From Rubrivirga sp. SAORIC476 (GTDB lineage: Bacteria; Bacteroidota; Rhodothermia; Rhodothermales; Rubricoccaceae): a stretch of DNA of 64,000 bases. Positions 21,535 to 25,467 of this stretch are shown one piece after another. The notes under the pieces were generated by a model, which ran no database searches, had not been told where the DNA came from, and worked only from the letters and a program-made list of their open reading frames with translations. Every line of letters starts with the position of its first letter. Position 1 is the first letter of the stretch. The position numbers and the translations under genes were made by a program. The stretch spans positions 310,001 through 374,000 of the forward strand of contig NZ_MVOI01000002.1 in the NCBI RefSeq assembly GCF_002283555.1, written 5' to 3'.

Positions 21535-22296
21535 TCAGATCTCCTCCCAGTACGGCTCGCCGCGCAGCTCGGCCGGGGCATCGGGGAGCCGGTCCTCGAC
21601 GGGGTCGTGGCGCGGGTGGCTCTTGCCCCGCACGTACAGCACGAACCGGCGCTTCCGGGGCTCCCGGCGGACTCCGCGCAGAGACCAGCCCTCCTGCCGG
21701 AGCAGGTCCTGGTACAGCGCGATGGAGGGCTCGATGGCCTTCCGGTGGACGCCGTCCACGACGAGCCGGTAGTACGTGCCCCGCTCGAGTCCCCAGATCA
21801 GCACCCAGCCGACGAGCGTAGCGACGATGGCCATCGGGTAGCGGCCCAGCCCGCACGCGACACCCACGAGCGTCGCCAGGATGACGTGGCCCGTGGCGTG
21901 CGCCGCCCCCACGTCCGTCCGGAACCGGAGCAGCCCCCCGATTCCGAACACCACGAGCGCCATCGCCGGACTGAGCACGACGATGGCCGAGACCATCGTG
22001 CCGACAACGGCATAGAGCAGGACCGTCTTGGGGTACTCCACCTCCTCCGTGCTCAACGCGCTGCCGTGCCGCCGGGGGTGAAACGCGATGGCCGACGAGA
22101 GCAACAAGGCCAGCGCGAGGTCGGCGCAGATCTGGAGGACCACCCGGAGCTCCAGAACCCGGTCCCATCCCCGCACGAACGAGGGGTCGTCCTCGGCGAT
22201 CCCGTCCGACAGCAGGTCGCCGAGCCCACCGGCCGTGGCCTGGGCGATCTGAAGAACGAGGGCGGGGCCATCTTGAATCAGGTCGAGGAAAGGCAT
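21535..22296 (-). CDS. DUF4956-like integral membrane protein
   Basis: A 253-residue inner-membrane protein. After an amphipathic N-terminus (MPFLDLIQDGPALVLQ) come about four to five hydrophobic segments: LALALLLSSAIAF, VLLYAVVGTMVSAIVVLSPAMALVVFGIGGLLRFRTDV, HVILATLVGVACGLG and MAIVATLVGWVLIWGLE. The GIGGLLRFRT-x5-A...GVACGLG arrangement resembles DUF4956 proteins, and more loosely MgtC. A soluble C-terminal domain of about 90 residues follows, basic and ending in YWEEI. Role unknown; DUF4956 proteins often sit near polyphosphate genes, but none is here. I used ATG 22296; the frame is open further upstream without support. Confidence 0.7.
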   Translation of the reverse strand: MPFLDLIQDGPALVLQIAQATAGGLGDLLSDGIAEDDPSFVRGWDRVLELRVVLQICADLALALLLSSAIAFHPRRHGSALSTEEVEYPKTVLLYAVVGTMVSAIVVLSPAMALVVFGIGGLLRFRTDVGAAHATGHVILATLVGVACGLGRYPMAIVATLVGWVLIWGLERGTYYRLVVDGVHRKAIEPSIALYQDLLRQEGWSLRGVRREPRKRRFVLYVRGKSHPRHDPVEDRLPDAPAELRGEPYWEEI

Positions 22297-22571
22297 GGCG
22301 ATCTCTACGCGGGGGGAAGGCAGAGAGGATAGCCAGCCCATCGGCCCGTCAGGGCGCTCTTCCAGAGGGACGTGCAGACGAAACCGACCGGGAGTGGCCC
22401 GCCGAACGCCGCGACCTCGGCCGCGCAGTCTCCGCCTCGGCGCGAGCACCGAGGCAGACGGGACCGGGCGCCGGCGGCCCTCCCTCGAACCGACGGGTTC
22501 GGACTGGTAAGATCACACCAGGGCGCCGCGGAGATGCAGAGCGAGGTTGACCGCGCCTCCTCTCCCCCGCC

Positions 22572-24110
22572 ATGCTCCGATCCCTCCCCCTCCTCGGCCT
22601 CGCGCTCGTCCTCGGCGGCTGCGTGGTCCTGTTCCACCGGGCCGACGTGGACCCGCTCGCGACCACCGCCCCCCAGCAGGTCACGTCGCCGCTCCGCGTG
22701 CACCTGACCGACGGCTCGGTCCTCCTTTTCCCGAACGGCGCCGTGTTCGCGGCCGACAGCGTCACGGGCACGGGCGCAACCATGCTCACCGTCCCCGCCA
22801 ACGAGACGACGGCCGTCCGCGGCGCCCCGATGGACCGCGTGCTGGGCGCCGAGGTGTACTCCACCGACACCAACGTGGAGTCGAGCGTGGCGGCGACGCT
22901 GGGCGCCAGCGCGGTGAGCTACGTCGCCATCGGGGTGGCCGCCGTCGTCATCTTCGGCTCGTGCCCGACGGTCTACGTGGACTCGGATGGGACGCCGACG
23001 CTCCAGGCCGAGCTGTTCTCGAACAGCATCGCGCCACTGTTCGAGATGCGCGACCGCGACGTGCTGCCGGACGCCGCGCTCCGCGCCGACGGCACGCTCC
23101 GGCTGGAGATCCGCAACGAGGCCCTGGAAACGCACTACCTCGACGACCTCGCCGTCGAGGCCGTCACGCACGCGCCCGGCGAGCGGGCCGTGCCGGGGGA
23201 GATCGGCACCGCGCTGGTGCTGGGCCGGGAGCGGGCGCCCCTCGCCGCCACCGACCGGACGGGCCGCGACGTGCTCGCCGCGCTCCGCGACGCCGACGAC
23301 CGCGCCTACGCCACCCTCGACGCCGTCACCGCGGCCGTCACCGAGGACGACCTCACCGACACGGTCACCCTCACCTTCCCCCGCCCCGACGCCGACTCGG
23401 CCGCGGTCGCGCTCCGGTTCCGCAGCAGCCTGCTCACGACGGTGCTCCTCTACGAGCACATGCTGGCCGGGCAGGGCGCGCGCGGCCTCGACTGGATCGG
23501 GCAGGACATGGCGTCCATCGGGTCCGTCGCCGAGTTCGGCGACTACTACCTCCGCCGGCTCGGGCTGCGCGTCGAGGTGGAGGAGGACGGCGTCTTCCGC
23601 GAGGTCGGGCGCGTGGCCGAGGCGGGGCCCATCGCGTGGGCCGAGCGGGCGGTCGTGATCCCGGTGCCCGACGAGGGCGAGCACGTCCGCGTGCGCCTCC
23701 GGTTCGTGGCCGACGGCTGGCGCATCGACCGCGCCACCCTGGCGGAGGTGCGGACGGTGACGCCGGAGCGCGTTCCGCTCGCCGAGGTGACCGCGGACGA
23801 CGGGGCCGAGATGCCCGCGCTGGCGGCGCAGCTCGCGACGACGGACCTGCGCCACGCCGTCCGCGGCCCCGGCAGCGTCTTCCACGCCGCCTTCCGCCCG
23901 ACGCCCGCGCCCGACGGGCAGCGCCAGACGTTCTTCGTCTCCTCTCAGGGCCACTACATCGAGTGGATGCGCCCCGACTGGCTCCGCCGGCCCGACCAGG
24001 GCCGGTTCGTCCCCAACGACTCGACGATGGTCTCGGCCATCGGCACCTGGCGGCGCCTCCGGGCCGACTACGAGGCGCGCTTCGAGTCGTCCATGCTCCC
24101 GGTCCGATGA
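22572..24110 (+). CDS. Large lipoprotein, unknown function (first gene of a coupled trio)
   Basis: A 512-residue predicted lipoprotein with MLRSLPLLGLALVLGGC, Cys17. Near 45-60 a strand pair VHLTDGSVLLFPNG suggests a small SH3-like element. A hydrophobic segment about 115-135 (SAVSYVAIGVAAVVIFGSCPTVYV) could be a membrane anchor or buried hairpin. The rest is mixed alpha/beta with regular strands (RLEIRNEALETHYL, LRVEVEEDGVFREVGRV) and a Trp/Tyr-rich end. I do not recognise the family. Its stop overlaps the next start as ATGA. Confidence 0.75.
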   Translation: MLRSLPLLGLALVLGGCVVLFHRADVDPLATTAPQQVTSPLRVHLTDGSVLLFPNGAVFAADSVTGTGATMLTVPANETTAVRGAPMDRVLGAEVYSTDTNVESSVAATLGASAVSYVAIGVAAVVIFGSCPTVYVDSDGTPTLQAELFSNSIAPLFEMRDRDVLPDAALRADGTLRLEIRNEALETHYLDDLAVEAVTHAPGERAVPGEIGTALVLGRERAPLAATDRTGRDVLAALRDADDRAYATLDAVTAAVTEDDLTDTVTLTFPRPDADSAAVALRFRSSLLTTVLLYEHMLAGQGARGLDWIGQDMASIGSVAEFGDYYLRRLGLRVEVEEDGVFREVGRVAEAGPIAWAERAVVIPVPDEGEHVRVRLRFVADGWRIDRATLAEVRTVTPERVPLAEVTADDGAEMPALAAQLATTDLRHAVRGPGSVFHAAFRPTPAPDGQRQTFFVSSQGHYIEWMRPDWLRRPDQGRFVPNDSTMVSAIGTWRRLRADYEARFESSMLPVR

Positions 24111-24592
24111 TGCGCTCCCTCCTCTTCCTCACCGTCCTTCTCACCGTGAGCGGCTGCACGTTCGGCCTGCGCGGGAGCGACGTGTACCAGGCGCGCGGCG
24201 TCACGCTGGCGCTGGAGATGCGCGGCGCGGGGGTGATCGCGGGCGAGTTGCTCACCGTCGAGTCCGGCGCCTTCGTGATCGACGCCGTCGACGAGGTCGC
24301 GCGACCGACCCGCGTCGTCCGCGTGCCGATGACGAGCGTGCTCCGGGGCGTAGTCCTCGGCGGGACGCCCTCGCCGGGCGAGATCCGGGACGTGCAGCGC
24401 ACGCCGCCTGGACTCGAACGCCTGGACCGCCTCTCGGAGAACGGCAACGCCCGCCGCCTCGACCTCCCCCCACTCAGCCGCTTCCCCTACGGCATCCCCG
24501 ATGCTGCGCTCGACCGGCTCCTCGACGCCCGCGGCCAGACCGAGGTGGCCGGACTCGACCGCGCGCCGACCCGCATGACGCCCCCCCGATGA
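24107..24592 (+). CDS. Small lipoprotein, unknown function (second gene of a coupled trio)
   Basis: A 161-residue predicted lipoprotein, MMRSLLFLTVLLTVSGC with Cys17. The mature part begins GLRGSDVYQARGVTLALEMRGAGVIAGELLTVESGAFVI, a strand-rich segment reminiscent of the VHLTDGSVLLFPNG part of the preceding lipoprotein. It ends in a Pro/Arg-rich tail without obvious fold. It overlaps both neighbours by ATGA, so all three genes must be translated together. The start CCGATGATGCGC is repeated almost exactly at the next gene. Confidence 0.72.
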   Translation: MMRSLLFLTVLLTVSGCTFGLRGSDVYQARGVTLALEMRGAGVIAGELLTVESGAFVIDAVDEVARPTRVVRVPMTSVLRGVVLGGTPSPGEIRDVQRTPPGLERLDRLSENGNARRLDLPPLSRFPYGIPDAALDRLLDARGQTEVAGLDRAPTRMTPPR

Positions 24593-25467
24593 TGCGCCTC
24601 CTCCTCCTCGTCCTCGTGCTGGCCGCGCCGGTCGCCGCTCAGCACGCGCATCACGCGCACGCCGCGGCGACGCTCGACTCCGTGCAAGTCGCCTTCCTGG
24701 CTGACGCGACGCACGCCCTCGCCGCCTTCGCCGACCCCGCCGACGCGCTGGCGGCAGGCTTCCGCCCGCTCGGCCCCGACATGCCGCACATGGGCCAGCA
24801 CTGGGTCCACCCCGGCCGGGCCGTCGGGCGCGCGTTCGACGCCGCCGAGCCGTCGATGCTGACCTACCTGCCGGTGGACGGTCGGCAGGTTCTCACCGGT
24901 GCCGCCTGGACGATCCCGATCCGAGCGGGCGAGGCGCCCCCGGACTTTCCGTGGCCGGGCGCGTGGCACGCCCACGCCGGGAGGCTAATGGATGAGGCGT
25001 TCGGACTCGTCCCCCACGGCGTCCGCGAGGCCGACCGGCCCCGGCTGGCGATGCTGCACGCGTGGACGGGCATCGAGAACCCGGACGGCGTGTTCACGGC
25101 CGACAACTGGGCGCTCCCCTTCGCCCGCGCGGGCGTGCCGGTCCCCCACCACGTGACGCCCGAAGCGGGCCGGGCCGTGGCGCTGGCGGCGGGCTACCTG
25201 CCCTTCTACCGCGAGGCCGTCGTCCGCGCTGCCGCGCCGCCACCCGATGTTCTCGCGCGAATCGAGGCTGCATTCGCCCATCGCGCGGCGTCTGTCCGCG
25301 CCCTGATCGCGGCCGAGCGCGTGCCCGACGTGGAGGCGCTCGCCGCCGAGTGGGCCCGCCTCGGCGCCGAGGTGGAGGCCGTCGCGCCGGACGCGTGGCC
25401 GCGGCTGGCGGGGCTGTTCGGCGCGCAGGGCCACACCGGGACGCACGCGATCGCGGAGGGCGACTGA
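24589..25467 (+). CDS. His-rich exported protein, unknown (third gene of a coupled trio)
   Basis: A 292-residue periplasmic or secreted protein: MMRLLLLVLVLAAPVAAQ signal, then HAHHAHAA at the mature N-terminus. His-containing motifs PDMPHMGQHWVHPG (near 65-75) and AWHAHAGRLMDE (near 125) could form a metal site; metal binding is inference. MLHAWTGIENPDGVFTADNW follows, then a helical C-terminal half. No named family recognised. ATGA overlap with the preceding lipoprotein gene suggests that it works with those two envelope lipoproteins, possibly in metal handling at the cell surface. Confidence 0.72.
   Translation: MMRLLLLVLVLAAPVAAQHAHHAHAAATLDSVQVAFLADATHALAAFADPADALAAGFRPLGPDMPHMGQHWVHPGRAVGRAFDAAEPSMLTYLPVDGRQVLTGAAWTIPIRAGEAPPDFPWPGAWHAHAGRLMDEAFGLVPHGVREADRPRLAMLHAWTGIENPDGVFTADNWALPFARAGVPVPHHVTPEAGRAVALAAGYLPFYREAVVRAAAPPPDVLARIEAAFAHRAASVRALIAAERVPDVEALAAEWARLGAEVEAVAPDAWPRLAGLFGAQGHTGTHAIAEGD

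Follow-up and report, generated by a model that had tools for sequence, protein, structure and literature searches.

A conserved three-gene envelope cassette in Rubrivirga and a possible histidine site in its third protein

According to an excerpt of PMC11876164, plant OBAP1 is required for oil-body structure. Our literature searches on TTHB210 and on DUF5602 found no paper. The DUF1264/OBAP family (PF06884) and the TTHB210-like proteins (PF18197) entered our study as possible relatives of g3, the third protein of the locus described here, a suspicion that we then tested. UnbV-type proteins were likewise a starting idea, as possible relatives of the first protein, g1. With g3, DUF1264/OBAP appears to share four motifs in the same order, H(Y/F/W), G(V/I/A)xY, WHxH and H(A/V/T)W, and the TTHB210-like proteins share a VPxMGxHW segment (about 44 columns aligned, 30% identity). 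The likeness of g1 to proteins of the TPR/FG-GAP/UnbV type (about 1100–1230 amino acids; PF13517, PF07593) covers about 75–100 g1 residues (model positions about 171–272), a stretch of the form ELWETHYxD...VDH that lies near the C-terminal half of the long proteins. In one long g1-matching ORF that we tested, FG-GAP and TPR repeats are present and a UnbV domain falls slightly short of the cut-off, whereas g1 itself is a 512-amino-acid lipoprotein without TPR, FG-GAP or UnbV domains.

The window, by which we mean the whole stretch of 64,000 nucleotides from Rubrivirga sp. SAORIC476 that was analysed, holds three plus-strand genes, g1, g2 and g3, whose neighbours overlap by ATGA (G numbers denote other genomes):

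22572–24110, + strand: g1, 512 amino acids, lipoprotein-like with lipobox LGGC; FGSCPT and RNEALETH are conserved; core of the g1–g2 pair
24107–24110, + strand: ATGA stop–start overlap of g1 and g2, also found in G003, G001, G006, G055, G096 and G191
24107–24592, + strand: g2, 161 amino acids, small and lipoprotein-like with lipobox VSGC; conserved GELL and RFPxG motifs
24589–24592, + strand: ATGA stop–start overlap of g2 and g3, likewise ATGA in G006
24589–25467, + strand: g3, 292 amino acids, exported; core at about residues 36–176 plus a trio-specific C-terminal extension

The first-pass annotation had described three genes joined by ATGA overlaps in a nearly identical start context. This description is accurate: its coordinates are correct and the 12-mer CCGATGATGCGC stands at both junctions, g1/g2 and g2/g3, which hold its only two copies on both strands of the 64 kb. 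The repeat exists because the genes end in Arg-stop and start with Met-Met-Arg. In relatives the exact 12-mer is lost and the stop–start overlap is often retained. At the g1/g2 junction G054 has a 3-base gap and no overlap; the g2/g3 junction reads TGATG in G003 and G001 and TAATG in G191, is spaced in G054 and G096, and is fused in G055. Differences from G003 at codon positions 1, 2 and 3 number 80, 84 and 157 in g1, 50, 43 and 72 in g2, and 45, 35 and 91 in g3. Because of this pattern we regard all three genes as truly coding, and together with their conservation it rules out spurious ORFs on a GC-rich strand.

That two of the proteins are lipoproteins and the third is exported agrees with our own reading by eye. 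A lipobox-like Cys follows a hydrophobic start in g1 (LGGC) and g2 (VSGC), and g3 begins with a signal-peptide-like stretch ending APVAA/Q. Across relatives the lipobox Cys is found in 10/10 rows for g1 and in 8/9 rows for g2 (it is absent in L029). Nor could we name a gene that the annotation had left without a name: Pfam and NCBIfam scans of g1, g2 and g3 of the window returned no family at its cut-off, and the same was true of a Pfam scan of seven relatives. Sub-threshold library matches to FlgH and Mago-bind (g1), FAD_binding_4 (g2) and the sunset domain (g3) were taken as chance, as was SH3_Rv0428c on the fused g2–g3 of G055 (E 0.003, below cut-off). Divergent to g1 lies a minus-strand gene (21535–22449) that resembles a DUF4956 membrane protein (E 5.7e-6, 26.6 bits; cut-off 30.6).

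The nearest named relative, a Rubrivirga MAG contig, carries the same trio. A single-sequence search of our initial set of 60 genomes, the window's own included, found g3 in 8, g1 in 10 and g2 in 4; g2 is short and fast-diverging, and this search overlooked copies that were later found by reading the regions. Two of the eight g3 matches are not of the trio type: the one in G013 is unlinked, and the one in G040 is short and contains an internal stop. Inspection of the gene neighbourhoods revealed g1–g2–g3 in G003, G001, G006, G054 and G055. When a g3 profile was run against 395 genomes of the phylum, 21 of which have a g3-family match, the trio turned up also in G096 and G191. Trio-type g3 is found in eight genomes (window included) of four family-level groups, always in the same gene order, and in 8/8 it either follows g1 and g2 immediately or forms a fusion with g2. 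The annotation had proposed to check whether the trio is conserved together, and it is: this is a real, conserved, uncharacterised envelope cassette. In G055, g2 and g3 share one reading frame and the g3 part has no signal peptide of its own; this single case lies at a contig end, inside the fused frame, in a genome that is 72% complete. None of the 17 unlinked g3 loci (L033, L063–L078) had a g1 or g2 match at E≤0.01 within the DNA retrieved.

The trio is sporadic. It occurs in 4/9 genomes of the window's family and in 1/6, 1/16 and 2/92 genomes of three other families. Neighbouring ORFs of 25 loci cluster only as g1, g2, g3 and mixed generic families, so that there is no conserved fourth gene among them, and no metal-related or otherwise telling neighbour recurs in this clustering. 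An upstream aldehyde dehydrogenase and a downstream gene of 209 amino acids have a match in G003 only, among ten relative loci, some of them short. The distances of g1 and of g3 over the eight genomes correlate at 0.926, a value attained by 3 of 40320 relabellings; the same co-divergence would be expected if the cassette were simply inherited vertically as a unit.

The core unit is the g1–g2 lipoprotein pair, which is spread through the phylum, and g3 is an add-on. A g1 profile search of the 395 genomes matched 63, many of them only by a stretch of 70–100 residues in ORFs of about 1100–1230 amino acids. We read 31 loci with g1 in its lipoprotein form (8 trio loci, L029–L032 and 19/20 of L114–L133, the long ORF of L132 being omitted) and found a g2-like neighbour at 25 of them, namely the 8 trio loci, L029–L032 and L114–L126. 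Twelve of the matches in L114–L126 have E≤4e-4 and the one in L114 is weak (E 0.017). The six loci without such a neighbour (L127–L131 and L133) all hold distant g1 relatives. That the N-terminal domain of g1 is a paralogue of g2 is unsupported (score 11.2, equalled by 19 of 100 shuffles). The g1 of G055 (L028:2682-4421) contains an in-frame low-complexity insert of His-Ala-Asp-Ala repeats that is absent from relatives. In a distant g1 relative in G188 (L133:4010-5911), an N-terminal beta-rich segment is, by eye, seemingly repeated three times.

The core of g3 belongs to a wide, unnamed family with members in the window's phylum, Gemmatimonadota, Alphaproteobacteria and haloarchaea. Relatives in the plasmid collection come from Gemmatirosa, Ensifer, Neorhizobium, Limimaricola, Haloarcula, Halorarius and Natronosalvus and are called "hypothetical protein" where annotated; they were reached only from unlinked members, the g3 of the window giving no match there as query. 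A search of viral contigs with g3 found no relative, Pfam and NCBIfam scans of ten further family members found no covering family, and PDB sequence searches returned no credible relative of the g3, DUF1264 or TTHB210-like profile. Profiles of trio and unlinked g3 match each other at 99.5% probability, and the g3 of the window matches the family profile over its core, with H71, H157, W159, N164 and G167. Trio forms are extended at the C-terminus by about 115 residues, which align only among these forms. In a tree of 47 domains, from which two held-out fragments were omitted and for which the program warned of long branches (including L027), the eight trio forms make up one group (support 100/99), with one label change. 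Structure prediction from two close sequences each gave a pLDDT of 40.1 for g3 and 35.0 for g1, too poor for reading a fold.

Within this family we compared trio and unlinked forms position by position in an alignment of 31 members (8 trio, 23 unlinked):

24799–24801, + strand: codon of H71 (MGxHW motif), His in 8/8 trio and 21/23 unlinked forms
24904–24906, + strand: codon of A106, Glu in 0/8 trio forms (Ala or Gly) and 23/23 unlinked forms
24967–24996, + strand: codons of H127, H129 and E136 (WHxH(x)6E), each present in 8/8 trio forms
25057–25059, + strand: codon of H157 (LHxW motif), His in 7/7 trio forms (the eighth is cut by the contig end) and 23/23 unlinked forms

Unlinked forms have His at column 127 in 4/23, His at column 129 in 0/20 read, and Glu at column 136 in 5/23. 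Held-out unlinked domains (18 fetched later, 17 of which reach each column) repeat their pattern: Glu106 in 17/17, H71 in 16/17 and H157 in 17/17. The g3 of the window, without Glu106, represents a distinct sub-type rather than a typical member, as judged from the alignment. Since the trio forms fall into one group of the tree with one label change, the exchange of Glu106 is one event that has been fixed since, and its residues are therefore not independent witnesses.

The g3 of the window contains 17 His in 292 residues, and the invariant ones resemble a site for metal binding or catalysis. The annotation had suspected a metal site and had pointed to a HAHHAHA terminus; this run is indeed there, N-terminal in the predicted mature protein, which begins QHAHHAHA. 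A start of QH(T/A)H or QHT is found in 4/4 members of the window's family. The run is absent in G054, G096 and G191, which keep the core His, and as a conserved feature it is ruled out, being confined to the Rubrivirga family. Hence the annotation's question of whether the His residues vary freely has a divided answer: H71, H127, H129 and H157 do not vary among the trio forms, whereas the N-terminal run, H67 and H74 do. A metal site is no more than plausible, and none of our findings speaks for its other suggestion, a chaperone system.

What could such a cassette do? The reading that we favour, tentatively and at somewhat less than even chances, is a lipoprotein-anchored envelope complex in which g3 carries one metal-binding His site and there binds a small molecule or converts it. 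The envelope lipoproteins g1 and g2 would form the conserved pair, which in the window's class would have gained g3 as a third, exported subunit. Translational coupling would let g3 be made in step with g1 and g2, and g2 would hold it at the membrane. H71, H127, H129, H157 and probably E136 would come together in this one site, which would work either in the periplasm or at the surface. In the stand-alone relatives H71, E106 and H157 may serve the same place, and the trio clade would have swapped Glu106 for the HxH...E element. We favour this reading because trio-type g3 is always linked (8/8), because of the g2–g3 fusion, the kept overlaps and the co-divergence of g1 and g3, and because the unlinked forms lack g1 and g2 (17/17) while the trio forms make up a single supported group with invariant residues and the Glu-for-HxH exchange. 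Against it count that there is a single case of fusion, that co-divergence would also follow from descent, that no neighbour is telling, that the trio is sporadic, and that pLDDT is low.

How distant is the kinship with described families? The g3 profile scored 27.0 against DUF1264 (7 sequences, from one genome and six plasmid records), the best of 150 shuffles reaching 23.8. Unlinked rows alone scored 26.1 (shuffles at most 23.6), and trio rows alone scored 18.0, which 14 of 150 shuffles equalled. The pattern of four motifs is matched by all 7 DUF1264 and all 7 full-length trio proteins, by no other of 3662 ORFs and by none of 21000 shuffles, counts that are descriptive more than a test, the pattern having been composed after both sets were seen and with Ala allowed for Glu. 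DUF1264 retains the Glu that trio forms lack and also has HxH, as though the two versions of the putative site were combined in it. Against the TTHB210-like proteins (13 sequences) the score was 36.0, with 70 shuffles at most at 17.7 and two unrelated alignments at 25.2 and 25.7; a second profile comparison gave a probability of 49%. The likeness ends after the VPxMGxHW segment, and the second His motif of these proteins, PHFDxHFY, sits upstream of MGxHW and is missing from the g3 alignments. In a ranked search of the 3662 ORFs together with both sets, both families came directly below the true members, at E of at least 0.015 and among a few unrelated ORFs; the hhalign probability for either family is at most 60%, and none of the g3 proteins scanned has a Pfam match to PF06884 or PF18197 above the gathering score. 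A match of one TTHB210-like protein to the endosulfatase PDB 6j66 (E 0.0056 over 42 residues) was set aside, the family profile having no match. A distant kinship of g3 with both families is suggestive only, below usual significance, and g3 is assigned to neither. It is an unlikely, wider possibility that all three make up one unrecognised His-site superfamily, in which the trio clade traded Glu for HxH(x)6E when it joined a lipoprotein-anchored complex as the third subunit: an envelope metalloenzyme not yet characterised.

One could also argue that g3 is a non-catalytic protein of an OBAP/TTHB210-like superfamily that binds lipid or a surface, and that His, Trp and Asn shape its fold with no metal involved. 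Conserved Trp, Pro, Asn and Gly do accompany the His, and the profile similarity to both families, along with the oil-body role reported for plant OBAP1 in the source excerpted above, would fit; we consider this doubtful, given that the kinship stays below usual significance and that an exact swap of Glu for HxH...E at otherwise invariant positions is more site-like than a fold element. It is rather unlikely, too, that the genes are merely co-transcribed, g1 and g2 working alone and g3 being a free periplasmic protein that never touches them. Such independence would explain why g1–g2 occurs without g3 in most lineages and g3 relatives occur without g1–g2, but trio-type g3 is linked in every case, once by fusion to g2, and the unlinked forms group apart and carry a different putative site. 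Very improbable is that the N-terminal His run is the working part of g3, a tail that buffers or chelates metal: its recurrence in the window's family would suit this, and its loss in G054, G096 and G191 despite their core His argues against it.

The suspected metal or catalytic site is open to direct mutational test through the Glu-for-His exchange, whose unlinked pattern was upheld on held-out sequences. Three protein families outside the scanned Pfam and NCBIfam models are now set out, and that of g3 spans bacteria and haloarchaea. If the link to DUF1264 were true, a small bacterial protein would offer a way into the study of plant oil-body proteins, which are poorly understood.

Some g3-type proteins carry the domain in tandem: three copies in L063:5284-6561 (G188) and two in L077:4549-5469 (G391), with two-domain forms also in G440, G446, G447 and G454. 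A Rotamase_2 match on the three-domain protein (30.3 bits against a cut-off of 27) was rejected, no single stretch being significant. The form at L070, from a genome of the window's order (G052), groups with L083 from a Haloarcula plasmid (support 97/94), a pattern suggestive of transfer between bacteria and haloarchaea.
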